A stretch of 64,000 bases of DNA from Terriglobia bacterium (GTDB lineage Bacteria > Acidobacteriota > Terriglobia > Acidiferrales > UBA7541): assembly GCA_020072785.1 (NCBI GenBank), contig JAIQGG010000002.1:1054001-1118000 (forward strand). The letters are read 5' to 3'. Every line of letters begins with the position of its first letter. The first letter of the stretch is position 1. Shown here in pieces: positions 5,060 to 63,738 of the stretch. The position numbers were made by a program, and so were the translations under genes. Under the pieces are notes generated by a model. The model saw nothing but the letters and a program-made list of their open reading frames with translations. It was not told the origin of the DNA and did not search any database.

Positions 5060-6772
<1,713 letters not shown>

Positions 6773-55562: not shown

Positions 55563-58046
55563 ATGGCGACTGAACTGTTCTCGTCCGGCCATTCGGAACC
55601 GGTGCGGGTCGAACTAAAAAGCTACCACGAGACGATCCCCCTGGGATCGATTGCCATAGGTGTGGACAACATCCACCACGATGTGTTCCTGAGCCCGAAG
55701 TTCGTGCAAGCCTCCCGCGACTATCTCTACGACCTACTGCGCCAGAGCACGGCGGCGACGTACTTTCCGGGGATGGAGCTGCGCACGGTAAAGGCGCTGG
55801 ACACCTCGGCGTACCGCAAGCTGCTGACGGAGCTGCTGCAGAACGCGCTGACGCTGGCGAAACATCAGAAAAACATCGAGGTCGATTACCTGTTTCGGCT
55901 GGCGGTGCTGAAATTCCTGACGCAGGAGCTGAGTAACCAGTTCGGGAATCTGATCCTGGAAGGGAAGGAGCGCATCCGGCACCGCGGGGAGTATTTCGAA
56001 CGCAGCCATGAGGCGCACGTCATCAAGGCGCGGCTCTCCGAGCTGCAGGCGGCGAAGCGCGATGTGCTGCGGGGGATCGGGCAGCAGATTCAACAACTGC
56101 TCGCAGACGTCGAGGAGAACATCCTGGCGAAGGCGCGGCGGGCGTTGTTCGGGGACGAGTTTGCGGCGATCTACGAGATGCTGAAGAACCGCATCCTTTT
56201 TCTGGAGGGCGGGAAGGACGAAATATTTTTTCTGGAGCACTACGTGCTGCTGGGGAATTACGTGCGCGATCCGGACCGCTTCGAGGCCATGGATGCGCTG
56301 TTCCAGGAATTCATGAAGGAAACGGGATTGGAGATCACGCATGACCCGGCGTATGCGGAGGCCAGACAGGCGCACACGGCGCTGCTGGAGGCGGCGCAGC
56401 ACCTGGGCGGAGAGATCGCCCAGCTGGAAGAGCAGCGGGACACGCTGCAGAAGAAGCTGGAACGCGGGGACGGGCTGCTTTCGCGGTTCATGAGCAGTTC
56501 GGAACCGTCGGACATACGGGCTTCGCTGAACGACGTGGAGAAGCGGCTGAGCCATCAGACGGGGAAGCTCGATGAGCTGGGGCCGCAGATCGAAGCCGCC
56601 AAGCAGAAACTGGATTTCTTTCACAAGGAATACGCCGGGCGGATCGGCGACTACCTGAACGAGCCGGAGAACGCGCGGAGGATGTTCGACGCGGCGGAGG
56701 CGAAGGAAGGGGAGGCGCAGCAGCGGACGCGGCAGCTGAACCGGCTGATCGAGAGGCTGGAGCAGCGGGAAGTGCTGCTGCATATCCTGGCCAGTTATGC
56801 GATCCGGCCGATCCGGCACGAATACTGCCCGCCGGTGCACTTGCAGCAACTGCGCAAGGCGCTGGTGTCGAAGGAGGAGCTGCAGCGCGTGGAGCAGGTG
56901 CTGAAGCAGGTGCCGGCGCGGAAATTGTCGCTGAAGCCGCTGGAGGAGCTGGCGCGGCGGATCCGCAGGTATTCGCGGGAGGAGACGCAGCCGCTGGTGC
57001 TGAAGTTTGCCGTGGATTTTCTGCGCTTGCGGCGGGATCTGCGGGACGCCGAGCATCTGACGGCGTGCATGGAGCGCATCAGCCTGATCACGACGGAGCA
57101 GGTGCGCGAGCTCTCGCGGCTGAACAACCGGCTGTATGAGTGCGTGTTGCCGGAAGAGGCGCCGCCGAAGGACGACCGGGTCATCTCGCACGTGATCATC
57201 AAGACGGACGTGCGCGGATCGACCAAGATGACGCAGGACCTGCTGAGCCGGGGCTTGAATCCGGCTTCGCATTTCAGCATGCACCTGCACGAGCCGGTAA
57301 AGAAGATCATCGACCGGTATGGCGCGAAAAAGGTGTTCATCGAGGGCGACGCCATTATCCTGGCCATCTTCGAAACCGAGAGCAACCAGGCCTACCAGCG
57401 GGCGGTAGCCAAGGCGTGCGTGCTGGCGCGGCAGATCATCAACGTGTGCGGGAGCTATAACGGGCGCGCGGTTTCCGGCGATCTGCCAGCGCTGGAGCTG
57501 GGAGTGGGGATCGCATTTCAGGAGGACGCGCCAACGTACTGGACCGACGGAGACTCGCGGATCATGATTTCCAAGGCGCTGAATCTTTCCGACCGGTTGT
57601 CGGGATGCGCGAAGCTGGCGCGGCGGCTGCTGGGAGCACAGAAGTCACATTTCTCGCTGTACCAGTTTTTGTCGGTGGTCGAGGGCGCTTCGGCGGAAGA
57701 AACCGACGAGTTCCTGGTGCGCTACAACCTGAACGGGATCGAGCTGAACGAGGTGGGGTTCACGAAATTGTCGGAAGAGATCGCGCTGGAAATGATCGAG
57801 ACCAAACTGGACATGCCCTGGGGCCGGGACAACGTGACGCTGTACTATGGCGAAGTGCCCATGGGGGAGACCATCGAGCTGCTGGTGCTGCGCAAGGGCT
57901 TTGCGCGGGAACTGCTGCCGGACGGGCGGATTGGCAAGCCCACGACGCACACCTACTATGAGGTGTGCAACACGCCGGCGCTGTACGATCTGGTGGCGGC
58001 GCTGAGCCGGGCGCAGGCCGCAGTGATCGGGCCACCCCGCCGGTAA
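55563..58046 (+). CDS. Large coiled-coil protein with class III cyclase-like C-terminal domain
   Basis: An 827-residue cytoplasmic protein, no signal peptide. About residues 1-530 are mostly helical, with long coiled coils near 130-220, 265-320 and 345-400. The C-terminal third resembles a class III nucleotide cyclase. Metal aspartates are D549 (KTDVRGSTKMT) and D596 (EGDAII); the transition-state pair is N674 and R678 (ALNLSDRL). The base-reading pair is atypical: F592 and K671, where adenylyl cyclases have Lys and Asp/Thr. A further 150 residues of unknown fold follow. It could be an atypical cyclase or a degenerate regulatory domain. The stop is 17 bases before a tRNA-Sec gene. Confidence 0.7.
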   Translation: MATELFSSGHSEPVRVELKSYHETIPLGSIAIGVDNIHHDVFLSPKFVQASRDYLYDLLRQSTAATYFPGMELRTVKALDTSAYRKLLTELLQNALTLAKHQKNIEVDYLFRLAVLKFLTQELSNQFGNLILEGKERIRHRGEYFERSHEAHVIKARLSELQAAKRDVLRGIGQQIQQLLADVEENILAKARRALFGDEFAAIYEMLKNRILFLEGGKDEIFFLEHYVLLGNYVRDPDRFEAMDALFQEFMKETGLEITHDPAYAEARQAHTALLEAAQHLGGEIAQLEEQRDTLQKKLERGDGLLSRFMSSSEPSDIRASLNDVEKRLSHQTGKLDELGPQIEAAKQKLDFFHKEYAGRIGDYLNEPENARRMFDAAEAKEGEAQQRTRQLNRLIERLEQREVLLHILASYAIRPIRHEYCPPVHLQQLRKALVSKEELQRVEQVLKQVPARKLSLKPLEELARRIRRYSREETQPLVLKFAVDFLRLRRDLRDAEHLTACMERISLITTEQVRELSRLNNRLYECVLPEEAPPKDDRVISHVIIKTDVRGSTKMTQDLLSRGLNPASHFSMHLHEPVKKIIDRYGAKKVFIEGDAIILAIFETESNQAYQRAVAKACVLARQIINVCGSYNGRAVSGDLPALELGVGIAFQEDAPTYWTDGDSRIMISKALNLSDRLSGCAKLARRLLGAQKSHFSLYQFLSVVEGASAEETDEFLVRYNLNGIELNEVGFTKLSEEIALEMIETKLDMPWGRDNVTLYYGEVPMGETIELLVLRKGFARELLPDGRIGKPTTHTYYEVCNTPALYDLVAALSRAQAAVIGPPRR

Positions 58047-58051
58047 TCCCG

Positions 58052-58057
58052 TATACT
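58052..58057 (+). promoter_or_regulatory. TATACT -10 box of the first tRNA-Sec gene
   Basis: TATACT ends 7 bases before the first base of the tRNA, so transcription would start at or next to G1. The box is conserved in the second copy (61701-61706). No clear -35 is visible; that region is the end of the cyclase coding sequence. Confidence 0.5.
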
Positions 58058-58063
58058 CGCAAT

Positions 58064-58162
58064 GGAGGCGAAAGGAGCCCGGTGGATCTCCGGGCCTTCA
58101 AAGCCTGCGATGCGGTCCTTCGCGGCCCGCCTGGTGGGTTCGACTCCCATACGCTTCCGCCA
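58064..58162 (+). tRNA. selC: tRNA-Sec (anticodon TCA), copy 1
   Basis: A 99-base selenocysteine tRNA with encoded CCA. The anticodon loop is CTTCAAA with TCA at 58098-58100. The acceptor stem GGAGGCG pairs with CGCTTCC with one G-T. The D arm, T arm (GTGGG/CCCAT around TTCGACT) and the long variable arm (about TGCGGTCC-TTCG-CGGCCCGC with one mismatch) fit the bacterial tRNA-Sec plan. The eighth acceptor pair is A-A in both copies. No selA, selB or selD is in the window. Confidence 0.92.
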
Positions 58163-58498
58163 TGGAATTGCGCCACGCGCTTTAGGCGAGGGATGTGACT
58201 AGATTCCCACTTATCCGTTTTTTAGGTTAACCCCCAGGGAGACGTTCTCTTTCTTCGGCTACGTCTCTTCAGAGAAGATGTTGCCCGCGTGAGTCTCCAG
58301 GCGAAGTTGCGGGTTTTCCGAAATAGCAGGAAATATAAGGACGTTTAGGACGCCCCGTAAGACATTGCTCTCAATTCTTCCAGGGCGTAACAGTCCATTT
58401 GAGGGCGGGGTCCTGCCACCGTCAGTCCATTCTTCTTGGTCCGGCGAAGACTACTCAAGCAAGACTGCCACATTCGTTTTGACGCAATCGGAAGGACG
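58163..58498. other. 336-base gap after the first tRNA-Sec gene
   Basis: No gene is supported. A T6 run at 58220-58225 follows the tRNA but has no clear stem before it. Short minus-strand open frames here (up to 75 codons) have no recognisable domain and no ribosome site. I see no integrase or transposase remnant that can be named. Confidence 0.4.
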
Positions 58499-61369
58499 CT
58501 AATTGGGCAACAGGCCGTAGACATCAAGCTCCCCCGGTGTGCTCGAGGTTCCGCTCCCCGTGTCGTTACCACGAGTCCCGATGTAGACCTTGCCGTTGGC
58601 GACGGTGGGGACTGTGAATTTTACGGCAAAGCCTGCGGTGTTTCCTGTTCCCTGCGTGCTATTCCACAACTCGGTGGCGAGATTGGTCGCATCATAGGCA
58701 TGAAGAACCGCGGGGCCGCAACCCGGTGACTGGGGCGTGCAGTATTGACTGTCATTGAGAGCCCAGGCGATCCCATTAGTGGAGCCGCTCGAGGAAACAG
58801 CCGGCGTTGTGCCGGGGAATCCATAACTGCTTGAGGATTGCGATGAGGCGGTAGTTGTAAATAGGCCTGTGGAGGGGTTGAAGGGGAAGGCTTTGAGGTG
58901 TCCGCCAACTCCCCCGATATACAACGTATTGTTCCAGAAAGCAGCCGTCGCAAATATGGAGTTGCTAATGCCGAAACGTTGCCGCGCGTTGCTATCCCCA
59001 AAGTGACCCATATTGTCTCGATTCAGAAGGTACAGAAAGCCATCCTTGCCGCCTCCAATGACCAGGTGCGCGACCGGTCCGGAAGTCTGATCGACAAGTA
59101 TCGCCGCTCCTCCGGATCCGAAATCGAGATCGTTTGAGTTGTCCGTGTTCTGATCCGAAGGGGTAAACCAGTCCGCGACGCTGAAACTGCTGGTCAGTTT
59201 TATGAAGGAATCGCCGTAGTCGTTATTCGGGGACGTCGTGCTGTTCGCGTCGAAGTTGCCATTTCCAGTAATAAAATACAAATTGTTGCTGGAATCCGCG
59301 GCGGGCGCGCCGCCTCCCATCCAGATCCCGCCGAAGCCAACATTGGGCGTGGCGTTGAAGACGCTTACTTGCGCCAGTGTGGTTGCGTTGTAGCCCATCA
59401 TCCAACCGTAGTACACCGATTTATCTTCATGCGAGGCCCAGGCAACATAAACAGTCCCATTGGTGAGCACCAAGCCTGGCCGCTGATTTTGGTTTCTGGG
59501 GTCAAACGTCACAGTCGTGCCGCCGGTATTCGTGCCCGGGTAGGTGGCGGAAATATTTACAGGTCCCGCAAGCTTCTCTGCACCCGAAGTTAAGTTGATC
59601 GCATGCAGCCGCTGGAAGAAGGTAAGGCTCGAGGCGATAACGGATTTGCAGACAACGTAAAGCGTATCTGTGTTGGGGTCGATGACGGGCGTGCCGGTAA
59701 TCCCCACTTCAGGTGTAATGTCGCCGAAACCCGACCCGACAAGATTCCCCGTCGAACCCGAGGGCACTGAAGTCTCGCCGGCGGCGCCACCATGGGCTGA
59801 ATCGATGAGACTCACATGCCACAGCGTTAGGCAGGGACTTGCGTCCGCGTCGAATGCGTACAAACTCCCGTGCTGTGTGGCTACGATGATCACGTTGTGC
59901 TTTTGGCCTCCAATCATCAGATTCGAGACCCAGAGAGGCTGCGCATAGATCGCCCCATCCGCCGCACAGGAGAAAAGCTTCCCGAAGGTGGAGGTGTTCA
60001 CCGTGGCGGTGGTAAGAGCGTATTCCTGGGTGTTGGTCCCGTCGCGGGAAAGATTGTTGTGATAGGTAGAGACGCCGGCAAGGTCGGTGACAGCAACGGT
60101 GGCCGATGCACTTTTCGTAACGTCGCTCACGCTGGTCGCAGTAACGGAGTATATGCCAGCCGTGGAAGGAGCCGTGAAAGTGACGGCAACTCCGGAGGCG
60201 CTCGATGTCGCAGAGAGAGAGCCGCCTGTGATGTTCCACGTGACACCTTGGTTGAGGCCGTCATTCGAAACCGTGGCAGTAAATGCCAGGCTCTGTGTAA
60301 TGGTCAGAGCGCCACGTTTCGGTGTAACGGAGACAACGATATTGCCGGTTGCGGCCAGGATGGTGATGGTGGCGGAGGCTGTGCGTGTTGTGTCGGCCAC
60401 GGAAGTGGCGGTCAGTGTGAGCGTCGCCGGAGAGGGCGCAGTTGCGGGGGCTGTGTAGGTGATGGCTACCCCGGATGCCGAGGAAGAGGCCGATAGCGTC
60501 CCGCAGGCAGTACCGCTACAGCCGGAGCCAGACAGCGTCCAGGTAACTCCCTTGTTCTGGGCATCGTTGGTGACGGTGGCGGTGAAGTTCTGCGGCTGCC
60601 CGGTCTGCACGCTGGCGGTCGTCGGCCCTACACTCACTGCAACGGGTGCGGTCACCGTGATCGTGGCCATAGAACTCCTGGTGTTGTCCGCCACCGAAGT
60701 CGCGGTCAGCGTTACCGTCGCGGGACTGGGCACCGCCGCAGGTGCGTTGTAGGTCACCGCGGTGCTGGTGATATTGGAGAGTGTCCCGCAAGTGGAGCCC
60801 GTGCAGCCGGAGCCGGAGAGCGTCCAGGTGACGCCTTTGTTCTGCGTGTCATTCTGCAGCGTAGCGCTGAAGCCTTGGGTTCCGATGCCGGCCTGCACGC
60901 TGGCGGTCGCCGGTGCCACACTCAGCGCAACGGGTGCGGTCACCGTGATCGTGGCCATAGAACTCCTGGTGTTGTCCGCCACCGAGGTCGCGGTCAGCGT
61001 TACCGTCGCGGGACTGGGCACCGCCGCGGGTGCGTTGTAGGTCACCGCGGTGCTGGTGACATTGGAGAGTGTCCCGCAAGTGGAGCCCGTGCAGCCGGAG
61101 CCGGAGAGCGTCCAGGTGACGCCTTTGTTCTGCGTGTCATTCTGCAGCGTAGCGCTGAAGCCTTGGGTTCCGATGCCGGCCTGCACGCTCACTGCTGTGG
61201 GCGATACGGAAACATTCACCAATTGCGGCTGCAGAGTCGCGGTCGGACCACCCGCGCACCCGGAGAGCGCGCAAGACAGAATTAACCCCAGGAATGCTGG
61301 ACCAGGCAAGCGACTCTTGGCTTGAGCTCCACGGGAACTCATCAAAAGATTTTTCTCCCAAGTTCGCAT
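58499..61369 (-). CDS. Lipoprotein with Ig-like repeats and beta-propeller-like domain
   Basis: A 956-residue putative outer-membrane lipoprotein: lipobox in LILSCALSGCAGG (Cys near residue 38), then four Ig-like/BACON-type repeats of about 96 residues (about 50-420; TATSVADNTRSSMATITV and similar). A C-terminal region (about 440-956) has repeated beta-propeller or PQQ-like blades (HNVIIVATQHGSLYAFDAD, GTPVIDPNTDTLYVVCK, LVIGGGKDGFLYLLNRDN). Repeats one and two are nearly identical. The start could also be the ATG at 61342. It lies alone, antisense to the flanking tRNA-Sec genes. Adhesion or extracellular binding is likely by family; not shown. Confidence 0.8.
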   Translation of the reverse strand: MRTWEKNLLMSSRGAQAKSRLPGPAFLGLILSCALSGCAGGPTATLQPQLVNVSVSPTAVSVQAGIGTQGFSATLQNDTQNKGVTWTLSGSGCTGSTCGTLSNVTSTAVTYNAPAAVPSPATVTLTATSVADNTRSSMATITVTAPVALSVAPATASVQAGIGTQGFSATLQNDTQNKGVTWTLSGSGCTGSTCGTLSNITSTAVTYNAPAAVPSPATVTLTATSVADNTRSSMATITVTAPVAVSVGPTTASVQTGQPQNFTATVTNDAQNKGVTWTLSGSGCSGTACGTLSASSSASGVAITYTAPATAPSPATLTLTATSVADTTRTASATITILAATGNIVVSVTPKRGALTITQSLAFTATVSNDGLNQGVTWNITGGSLSATSSASGVAVTFTAPSTAGIYSVTATSVSDVTKSASATVAVTDLAGVSTYHNNLSRDGTNTQEYALTTATVNTSTFGKLFSCAADGAIYAQPLWVSNLMIGGQKHNVIIVATQHGSLYAFDADASPCLTLWHVSLIDSAHGGAAGETSVPSGSTGNLVGSGFGDITPEVGITGTPVIDPNTDTLYVVCKSVIASSLTFFQRLHAINLTSGAEKLAGPVNISATYPGTNTGGTTVTFDPRNQNQRPGLVLTNGTVYVAWASHEDKSVYYGWMMGYNATTLAQVSVFNATPNVGFGGIWMGGGAPAADSSNNLYFITGNGNFDANSTTSPNNDYGDSFIKLTSSFSVADWFTPSDQNTDNSNDLDFGSGGAAILVDQTSGPVAHLVIGGGKDGFLYLLNRDNMGHFGDSNARQRFGISNSIFATAAFWNNTLYIGGVGGHLKAFPFNPSTGLFTTTASSQSSSSYGFPGTTPAVSSSGSTNGIAWALNDSQYCTPQSPGCGPAVLHAYDATNLATELWNSTQGTGNTAGFAVKFTVPTVANGKVYIGTRGNDTGSGTSSTPGELDVYGLLPN
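60761..61190 (-). repeat. Two 288-base tandem repeats within the lipoprotein gene
   Basis: A 96-codon unit is repeated with a period of exactly 288 bases (for example ggtgctggtg at 60761 and 61049). The two copies are near-identical at DNA level, whereas the next units are clearly diverged. This points to recent duplication or gene conversion. Confidence 0.75.
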
Positions 61370-61512
61370 AGGGGGGCAATTTAACAGATTGATGCGGCAA
61401 AGTCTTCATTGGCCAGCTGTTGGCTCGAACCTTTCTAAAACATCATCCGGCAGCCGATACTTCTAATCAGTGACCAAACAGTTCGAAAAGATCCTGCAGT
61501 GAGGATCGCGCT

Positions 61513-61695
61513 ATGGAGAGCGATTTCAGGAAATACGAGACAGTGGAGAATGCGGCGTATGCAACCTCTCAGAAAGTCGTTCGGAGTGGGGCTGGCTGTG
61601 TTGCCATGGTCCTGTCGATCGCATCCTGCAAGGAGGCGCGCGGAAACACCCCCCTGCCGGCGCAGGCCGCAGTGATCGAGCCTCCACGCCGCTAA
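61513..61695 (+). pseudogene. Fragment ending in a duplicated cyclase-gene tail
   Basis: A 60-codon open frame whose last 12 residues (AQAAVIEPPRR) match the end of the cyclase-like protein (AQAAVIGPPRR), with stop and downstream sequence. The first 48 codons have no counterpart there. It is most simply a remnant created by the 151-base duplication, not a gene; a small novel protein cannot be fully excluded. Confidence 0.5.
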
Positions 61696-61700
61696 TCCCG

Positions 61701-61706
61701 TATACT
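61701..61706 (+). promoter_or_regulatory. TATACT -10 box of the second tRNA-Sec gene
   Basis: Same box and same 7-base distance to the tRNA as in copy 1. Conservation of this hexamer while neighbouring bases have changed supports its being a promoter element. Confidence 0.5.
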
Positions 61707-61712
61707 CCCTAT

Positions 61713-61811
61713 GGAGGCGAAAGGGGTCCGGTGACTCTCCCGGCCTTCAAAGCCGGCGATTCGGTCCTTCGCGGCCCGAATGGTGGGTTCGACTCCCACA
61801 CGTCTCCGCCA
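61713..61811 (+). tRNA. selC: tRNA-Sec (anticodon TCA), copy 2
   Basis: A second 99-base tRNA-Sec with TCA at 61747-61749 and encoded CCA. The anticodon stem CCGGC/GCCGG is fully paired (copy 1 has a G-T), the T stem GTGGG/CCCAC is perfect, and the acceptor keeps one G-T and the A-A pair. In the variable arm, TTCGG...CCGAA replaces TGCGG...CCCGC, so both sides changed together and pairing is kept. This suggests it is still under selection. Confidence 0.9.
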
Positions 61812-62139: not shown

Positions 62140-63738
62140 GTGGCAGTGACCGTGGAAGTCAGCGCCGAGGGTATCCCGCGGCTGCGCTTTCCCGAGCCGT
62201 TCAATGCCGCCGAGCACTTCGTGGACCGTCATCTTGCGGAAGGACGCGGCAATAAAATTGCGGTGCGCACACTCGACCGGGAAGTGAGCTACAGCGAGCT
62301 GGTGGAGAGCGTCAACCGCTTCGGCAACACCCTTGCGGACCTGGGGATGAAGCGCGGGGAGCGGGTCCTGATGGTGGTCAATGATTGTCCCGAATTCTTT
62401 TTCCTTTTCTGGGGCGCCCTGAAGATCGGCGTGATTCCCGTGCCGCTGAACGCGTTACTCCGAGCCAACGAATTTGCGTTCATCATCCGGGATTCGCAGT
62501 GCGCCGGTCTGGTGTACTCGTCCGAGTTCGCGGAGGAGGTGGAAGCCGCCCTGGAAGCCTCTTCGTGGCGGCCCCGCGTCGTGCTGCGCCTGAAGGGTAG
62601 CGCGGACGCGCTGACGGAGCGGGCACGGAACGCTTCGCCGGAGCTCCAGGCAGTTCCCACAAGCGCCGACGACGATGGTTACTGGCTCTATTCCTCGGGT
62701 ACCACCGGACGGCCGAAAGGGGTGGTCCACACCCACGGGGACCTCGCCGTCTGCAGTCAGTTGTACACCGTGGGAGTGCTCGGCGCCGAAGAGAGCGATG
62801 TCTTTTTTTGCGTGCCGCGGCTGTTCTTTTCGTATGGCCTGGGGGCGGCCATGTGCGCTCCCTTGTGGGTCGGCGGCACGACCATCCTCGACGAGCGGCG
62901 GCAGACGCCGGAGACGGTGATGGAGGTGTTTCGGCGCTACTCGCCCACGCTGTTCGCCGCCGTGCCCACGTTCTTCGCCAGGATTCTGGCTGCCAAGGTG
63001 CTGACAAGGGCTGCCGTTCCGCGGCTGCGCCGGTGCATGTCCGCTGCCGAGCCACTGCCCCCTGAATTGCATCGCCTGTGGCTGGAAGTGACCGGGGTAC
63101 CGATCATGGAGGGCATCGGCTCGACCGAGGTGGGGCACATTTACATCTCCAACCGCTGCGACGATATCCGGCCGGGCACGTCCGGCAAGCCGGTCCCCGG
63201 CTACCAGGTTCGCATCGTGGACGATGCCGGGAACGATGTCGGCGAAGAGATGCCCGGGCGCCTGCTGGTCAAGGCCCAGTCGGTGACGCGGCGCTACTGG
63301 AACGAACCGGAGAGGACAGCCAAGGCCATCGTGAACGGCTGGTTTGATACCGGGGACACCTTCCGCCGGGACAAGGAAGGCTACTATGTCTTCTGCGGAC
63401 GGGGCGACGATATGCTCAAGATCAGCGGCAGGTGGATCTCGCCGTTCGAAATCGAATCCGCCCTTGTGGAGCATCCCAAGGTGCTCGAAGCGGCGGTGGT
63501 CGGCCGGACCGACGAAAACGGCCTGATGAAGACCGAGGCCTGGGTAGTGCTGAAAGACCCCGCGCAGGCTTGCGAGCTGACCGCCCAGGAGGTCCGGGTG
63601 TTCTGCAAGGGCAAGCTTTCCCCTTACAAGTCTCCCGCATGGATTCATTTCGTGGAGCATTTGCCGAAGACGGCAACCGGAAAGATCCAGCGGTATAAGC
63701 TGCGCGCCACCCAGCAAGAAGAGGTGGGACACGCGTGA
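62140..63738 (+). CDS. Benzoate-CoA ligase-like AMP-forming CoA ligase
   Basis: A 532-residue adenylate-forming ligase that activates a carboxylic acid as its CoA thioester. Motifs: the AMP-binding loop YSSGTTGRPKGVVHTHG (about residue 183), EGIGSTEVGHIYIS, YRFDTGD-type WFDTGDTFR, RGDDMLKISGRWISP and the C-terminal lysine loop KTATGKIQR. The pattern is closest to benzoate/4-hydroxybenzoate-CoA ligases. The GTG at 62140 follows AGAGAGG. Its stop overlaps the next start (GTGA), so it is coupled to an enoyl-CoA hydratase gene. Confidence 0.85.
   Translation: MAVTVEVSAEGIPRLRFPEPFNAAEHFVDRHLAEGRGNKIAVRTLDREVSYSELVESVNRFGNTLADLGMKRGERVLMVVNDCPEFFFLFWGALKIGVIPVPLNALLRANEFAFIIRDSQCAGLVYSSEFAEEVEAALEASSWRPRVVLRLKGSADALTERARNASPELQAVPTSADDDGYWLYSSGTTGRPKGVVHTHGDLAVCSQLYTVGVLGAEESDVFFCVPRLFFSYGLGAAMCAPLWVGGTTILDERRQTPETVMEVFRRYSPTLFAAVPTFFARILAAKVLTRAAVPRLRRCMSAAEPLPPELHRLWLEVTGVPIMEGIGSTEVGHIYISNRCDDIRPGTSGKPVPGYQVRIVDDAGNDVGEEMPGRLLVKAQSVTRRYWNEPERTAKAIVNGWFDTGDTFRRDKEGYYVFCGRGDDMLKISGRWISPFEIESALVEHPKVLEAAVVGRTDENGLMKTEAWVVLKDPAQACELTAQEVRVFCKGKLSPYKSPAWIHFVEHLPKTATGKIQRYKLRATQQEEVGHA

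Follow-up and report, generated by a model that had tools for sequence, protein, structure and literature searches.

The selC islands of enterobacteria are well known, and two further kinds of element are pertinent to the locus described here: CIMEs, which are integrase-less elements bounded by att sites, and SLP1, in which a long att identity block spans the whole tRNA gene. In the islands mapped by Islander one end is the restored tRNA gene and the other a displaced piece of it, from the 3' end in 3,760 cases and from the 5' end in 159, and attachment repeats at tRNA genes are usually partial fragments (PMC4383910). Mycobacteriophages can bring a complete tRNA gene of the targeted isotype; the host gene is disrupted and the phage copy compensates (PMC10865867). 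Second tRNA-Sec genes are themselves on record. Secmarker reported eight bacterial genomes, mostly of Clostridia, with two tRNA-Sec genes that have G73 and show compensatory changes, examples being Desulfitobacterium, Desulfosporosinus and four Clostridiales with adjacent copies in the same operon; many such second copies were regarded as bona fide (PMC5330540).

The window (the whole stretch of 64,000 nt that we analysed) comes from G000, the genome of a soil bacterium whose genus is one of uncultured Acidobacteriota. Within the window ARAGORN detects two tRNA genes and no others; both are tRNA-SeC(tca) genes with the anticodon UCA on the + strand: W1 at 58064-58162 and W2 at 61713-61811. The Rfam covariance model RF01852, whose gathering score is 47, agrees, with 60.9 bits for W1, 66.2 bits for W2 and all 91 model positions covered, so that neither copy is rejected. 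Both copies have the discriminator G73, the encoded CCA, the UCA anticodon and a long variable arm. Each gene forms the end of a direct repeat (58010-58162 and 61659-61811, both +) that is gapless as first described, although it measures 153 nt rather than 151; the two repeats are 88% identical, differ at 18 sites and are spaced 3,649 apart. A repeat comprises the final 37 nt of an 827-aa ORF with its stop codon (the tail being a relict in the right copy), a TATACT box and the entire tRNA gene, and its right edge is exactly the encoded CCA. A chance origin of the repeat is excluded, and that W1 and W2 are two structurally sound selC genes is a firm part of our finding. An earlier note on this DNA had claimed two complete tRNA-Sec genes 3,649 apart on the same strand, about 12% diverged, with the whole tRNA and its upstream box doubled, and all of this holds. 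Its remark that genomes usually carry one selC stands, two in a bacterium being rare, although published precedents exist (PMC5330540).

Like the Secmarker pairs, W1 and W2 are non-identical, have G73 and show compensatory changes, and those pairs were judged likely functional by the same reasoning; the Secmarker list contains no Acidobacteriota, however, and W1 and W2 instead bracket a foreign-looking interval (PMC5330540). With islands at tRNA genes the locus shares insertion at the tRNA gene, direct repeats, a restored tRNA and recombinases in relatives (PMC4383910). Direct repeats overlap the tRNA at both ends, as in a typical island, but they are longer and reach into the upstream gene. 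Unlike the Islander islands, the repeat is the whole tRNA gene plus 54 bp upstream, and the interval holds one large gene and no integrase. Since no integrase gene lies inside the interval, we do not file the locus as a proven genomic island, though it may still work like one. The cargo between attachment-like repeats without an integrase may be likened to CIMEs, and the block that spans the tRNA to SLP1. In the tRNA-dependent lysogeny of mycobacteriophages the tRNA is likewise complete and isotype-matched, but the host's copy is broken there, whereas both window copies are intact (PMC10865867). What is new, as far as the substitution pattern indicates, is a pair with both copies intact, of which the extra one bears signs of selection for its shape.

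Whether relatives have a single selC at this locus and lack the interval, a question raised by the earlier note, is answered by G007, the closest sampled relative. There the upstream gene, one selC and the gene for an AMP-binding ligase follow in direct succession and the interval is absent, as it should be at the site of an island in a close relative. In the window the corresponding left and right anchors of the site are the 827-aa upstream gene (55563..58046, +), whose last codons are duplicated, and the ligase gene (62140..63738, +), which in G007 stands directly 3' of the single selC. Amino-acid identity to G007 is 92.5% for the upstream gene and 89.9% for the ligase, the nucleotide alignment gives 93.4% for the left flank through the end of W1 and 87.9% from W2 onward, and synteny between the two genomes is unbroken for more than 17 kb rightward of the site. 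Taking out 58010-61658 from the window yields the G007 arrangement. The empty site indicates that 3.65 kb were inserted, loss in G007 being less likely, a polarity that rests mainly on one close relative; it is also the sign of insertion whose lack had been named beforehand as telling against the idea.

The sole large gene between the two selC copies is the cargo gene, 956 aa, at 58499..61369 on the - strand, which bears out the description of one reversed lipoprotein gene. It has an N-terminus with a lipobox-like LSGC motif and tandem Ig/Fn3-like repeats, two 288-nt units of which are 97% identical. The GC content is 59% in the cargo gene and 52% and 53% in the non-coding stretches to its left (58163..58498) and right (61370..61658), against 62-64% in the neighbours of the interval, and third-position GC is 0.69 in the cargo gene versus 0.85 and 0.81 for the genes on either side. 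A motif search of the interval and the extended region recognised no integrase, recombinase or mobility gene. For the C-terminal half of the cargo, relatives were found in 31 of the 36 genomes of the genus (G000 counted), the best of them 65-69% identical, with none at threshold in G007, G009, G003, G021 and G035 and no sequence relative in the PDB. The short flanks fetched with these relatives contain no tRNA gene, so that no general link between tRNA and cargo was found. The upstream gene, labelled cyclase-like in the earlier note, matched no Pfam family at 0.001, and this label is therefore not confirmed; one SMC-related NCBIfam match fell below cutoff. Its synteny is kept across most of the genus, and among the named contigs that carry it are those of Candidatus Acidiferrum typicum and of gp2 Acidobacteria MAGs. 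The foregoing also bears on the idea that two selC genes came first and that recombination between the repeats then removed the interval from G007. A pair of 153-bp direct repeats is able to delete what lies between them, and relatives of the cargo are widespread in the genus, but the composition of the interval is unlike that of its neighbours, the G007 selC is W2-like throughout with no W1/W2 mosaic, and no other sampled family member has two copies (the artefact in G032, below, aside); we consider such a loss improbable.

Strong tRNA-Sec matches occur in 31 of the 36 genomes of the genus, and at least one tRNA-Sec in 68 of the 89 genomes of the family; at both levels two copies are seen only in G000 and G032. 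The two selC of G032 lie 259 bp apart, and we rejected them as a natural pair: an exact 199-bp repeat across a 60-N gap is very probably an assembly overlap. Of 399 genomes sampled from the class, eight gave two matches at threshold. For G205, G362 and G387 the second tRNA-Sec is on another contig; G036, G044 and G314 were rejected as double-selC cases because the second match is another tRNA. Most assemblies are fragmented, so the number of tandem copies counted in other genomes is a minimum. A possible objection is that the double selC of the window is itself an artefact of assembly, like the family's only other two-copy case. We find this extremely improbable, given the 18 differing sites, the lack of any gap, a contig of 1.6 Mb and two flanks that are both syntenic with G007.

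In four genomes of the genus (G008, G010, G030 and G032) tyrosine recombinases adjoin selC immediately on its 3' side, and in two other family members (G043 and G044) immediately on its 5' side, PF00589 being confirmed in five of these six and the one in G010 recognised by motif alone. In G008 a truncated 5' selC fragment with a TATACT box follows the upstream gene, 0.8 kb before the complete selC, and marks an older insertion; in G044 a 43-nt 5' selC fragment stands 3.6 kb before the complete gene. With recombinases beside it in six relatives, selC is a hotspot for insertion among these bacteria, in agreement with the earlier appeal to selC as an integration site.

W2 differs from the G007 selC at 2 of 99 positions (98% identical), and in a tree of 40 selC the two are grouped with a support of 84. 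W1 has 12 tRNA substitutions relative to W2 and differs from both W2 and G007 at 12 positions; there is no tRNA site at which G007 agrees with W1 against W2. The terminal branch of W1 is the longest among the 40 (0.22 versus a median of 0.024), and its placement is poorly supported, the tRNA tree being too short to place it. The near-identity and the grouping identify W2 as the orthologue of the G007 gene, and W1 as the additional or fast-changing copy. That W2 is, judged by sequence, the native gene is another firm part of our finding, as are the empty site in G007 and the constraint on W1.

The ancestry of W1 gives a mixed signal. Seven states are common to W1 and W2 and absent from G007, one in the upstream-gene tail, four in the promoter spacer and two in the variable arm (CC at tRNA positions 63-64), which points to copying within the lineage or gene conversion and fits ill with a distant donor. 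At tRNA positions 91-92, by contrast, W1 agrees with the consensus of the genus, and a different state is common to W2 and G007. Thus the upstream part of the block seems to have been copied within the lineage, and the tRNA portion of W1 seems older than that. A crossover within the tRNA, which would have left native/foreign chimeras, was rejected, W2 being equal to G007 in both halves except at 63-64.

Such copying within the lineage could mean that the 153-bp block was duplicated locally in tandem, that an unrelated insertion of the lipoprotein gene followed, and that W1 was freed to change by having W2 as a backup, with compensated changes building up in its stems. Five of the seven shared states are in the tail and spacer, the tails of both repeats are of the G000/G007 type, unlike those of other genus members, and the closest sampled tRNA to W1 is W2, at 88%, all as expected from this course of events. 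However, it requires two independent events at one point; the 12 changes in the W1 tRNA are private to it, whereas W2 has none except 63-64, shared with W1; and free drift should reach the loops too, where W1 has no change. We hold this explanation, the main rival of the one we favour below, to be possible, though doubtful. The earlier suggestion of an old tandem duplication or an unusual cargo module survives in part: the cargo gene is indeed absent from G007, but a simple tandem duplication as worded is insufficient, since it leaves unexplained the foreign-looking interval and the one-sided divergence of W1.

The 12 substitutions of W1 relative to W2 all fall at paired positions, which make up 64 of the 99, and the anticodon, loops, discriminator G, CCA and TATACT box are intact. 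Nine pairs are altered, of which seven still pair and two (14-23 and 48-68) are broken; three (15-22, 29-43 and 49-67) have changed on both sides and are compensated. We compared this pattern with 200,000 random sets of 12 substitutions for each model, with transition biases from 1 to 8, assuming independent, site-uniform substitutions and a structure derived from the W2/G007 sequences. The joint outcome (all changes in stems and as many pairs kept) had a frequency of 0 to 1.1e-4 (0 of the 200,000 sets when rates were equal), and at least three compensated pairs arose at a frequency below 1e-3. The number of pairs kept is not extreme alone (0.03 to 0.20), so it is stem confinement and the compensations that carry the result. 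ARAGORN recognises 415 of 2000 random mutants with 12 substitutions. The stem-only, compensated pattern, with P about 1e-4 or less, makes W1 look like a constrained tRNA-Sec rather than a decaying relic, and indicates that it has been under selection for its fold; the test does not fix the period or the host of that selection. That W1 is a pseudogene in decay and W2 the sole working gene would agree with the lower score of W1 and its two extra mismatches, but the confinement to stems, the three compensated pairs and the intact anticodon, loops and ends speak against it, and we think it unlikely.

The genome has a pathway for tRNA-Sec to serve. The presence of selA, selB and selD elsewhere in it had been proposed as a check, and all three were found: selA at 556 bits, selB at 356 bits, and a selD with one in-frame TGA (context ...MVKAAG-UGA-AAKLSPGT), which we take to be where the active-site residue usually lies. 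The genome also contains a formate-dehydrogenase-like frame with one TGA. By its gene content, then, the genome is predicted to use selenocysteine; the W1/W2 locus is far from selA and selB.

On balance we favour, with modest confidence, an insertion at the selC hotspot that added 3,649 bp with the cargo and a second block and left a complete selC at either end. The ancestral order would have been cyclase-like gene, one selC and AMP-ligase, and recombination would have added the foreign-looking interval with its lipoprotein-type gene together with a second block that comprises selC with its promoter box and the cyclase tail. As nothing is missing from the block, the end of the cyclase-like gene remains normal and neither selC has lost its TATACT box. 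Since the W1 sequence has been constrained to the tRNA-Sec fold, the simplest view of function is that tRNA-Sec is made from both genes; we infer that both are expressed, and their tRNAs would be charged via SerRS, SelA and SelD and delivered by SelB. With a hotspot in relatives, the most economical reading of the module is a small insertion with its integrase gone and the whole tRNA plus box at both ends, and we infer that it is what remains, minus the integrase, of a site-specific element whose attachment block was unusually long. Since the interval has no recognised integrase or mobility gene, the element mechanism draws on context, and a repeat made of the entire tRNA gene and 54 bp upstream counts against it. 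A search of viral contigs with one pattern found no viral source.

These results extend the use of selC as a hotspot to uncultured Acidobacteriota and describe an insertion that duplicates, in place of the usual partial fragment, the entire tRNA and its promoter box. Because tRNA-Sec is normally a single gene, W1 and W2, 12% apart with the fold kept, offer a ready test of what the Sec machinery tolerates. It is conceivable, if rather unlikely, that small elements in these Acidobacteriota carry a complete promoter-selC block along, with the result that insertion at selC spares Sec decoding and the second copy may specialise. If so, the host would be left with a second, independently evolving tRNA-Sec, for example one specialised in expression or in affinity for SelB.

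Finally, the right non-coding stretch of the interval holds most of a 60-codon ORF on the + strand (61514-61696) whose end shares the reading frame of the duplicated upstream-gene tail, an agreement that may be accidental.

A trace of insertion at this locus in a relative lies in the congener G008 (locus L047), where a truncated 5' selC remnant of about 29-38 nt, with its TATACT box, sits about 70 nt beyond the end of the match to the upstream gene; a complete selC follows 0.8 kb past the fragment, together with a tyrosine recombinase. This arrangement is the scar of an older insertion, at the same site as in the window. In two genomes of the family, G044 (L078) and G043 (L077; selC-site feature 5333-6517), a tyrosine recombinase ends just upstream of selC and reads toward it. 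G044 also carries a 43-nt 5' selC fragment 3.6 kb upstream of selC (selC-site features at L078 3265-3307 and 6888-6982), resembling the rarer kind of island, in which it is the 5' portion of the tRNA that is displaced.

An apparent tandem selC in another congener, G032 (L039 6468-6825), was rejected: the two sides of a 60-N scaffold gap overlap exactly over 199 bp, so that the double selC most likely arose in assembly. In G032 the contigs branch exactly at the CCA end of the tRNA.

The upstream gene itself (window 55563-58046, 827 aa) is conserved and adjoins selC in most of the genus; a Pfam search at a cut-off of 0.001 gave no match. Within the lipoprotein gene, two 288-nt units (window 60600-61175) are 97% identical, the mark of an Ig-like repeat that expanded recently. 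A 60-codon ORF (window 61514-61696) has a lipobox-like segment, and its reading frame carries on into the duplicated tail of the cyclase-like gene; the fetched loci yielded no relative.

The closest sampled relative, G007, has two selD genes (contigs C56 and C45), each with an in-frame TGA, one sharing its contig with a formate dehydrogenase alpha gene that also has an in-frame TGA; in the genome of the window, no full-length match was found to the formate dehydrogenase model matched in G007. A second tRNA-Sec, unlike the first and located on a different contig, is present in three further genomes of the class (tRNA-Sec loci: L086 and L089 in G205, L090 in G362, L092 in G387), and in G205 an antisense tRNA-Gln lies just upstream of both copies.
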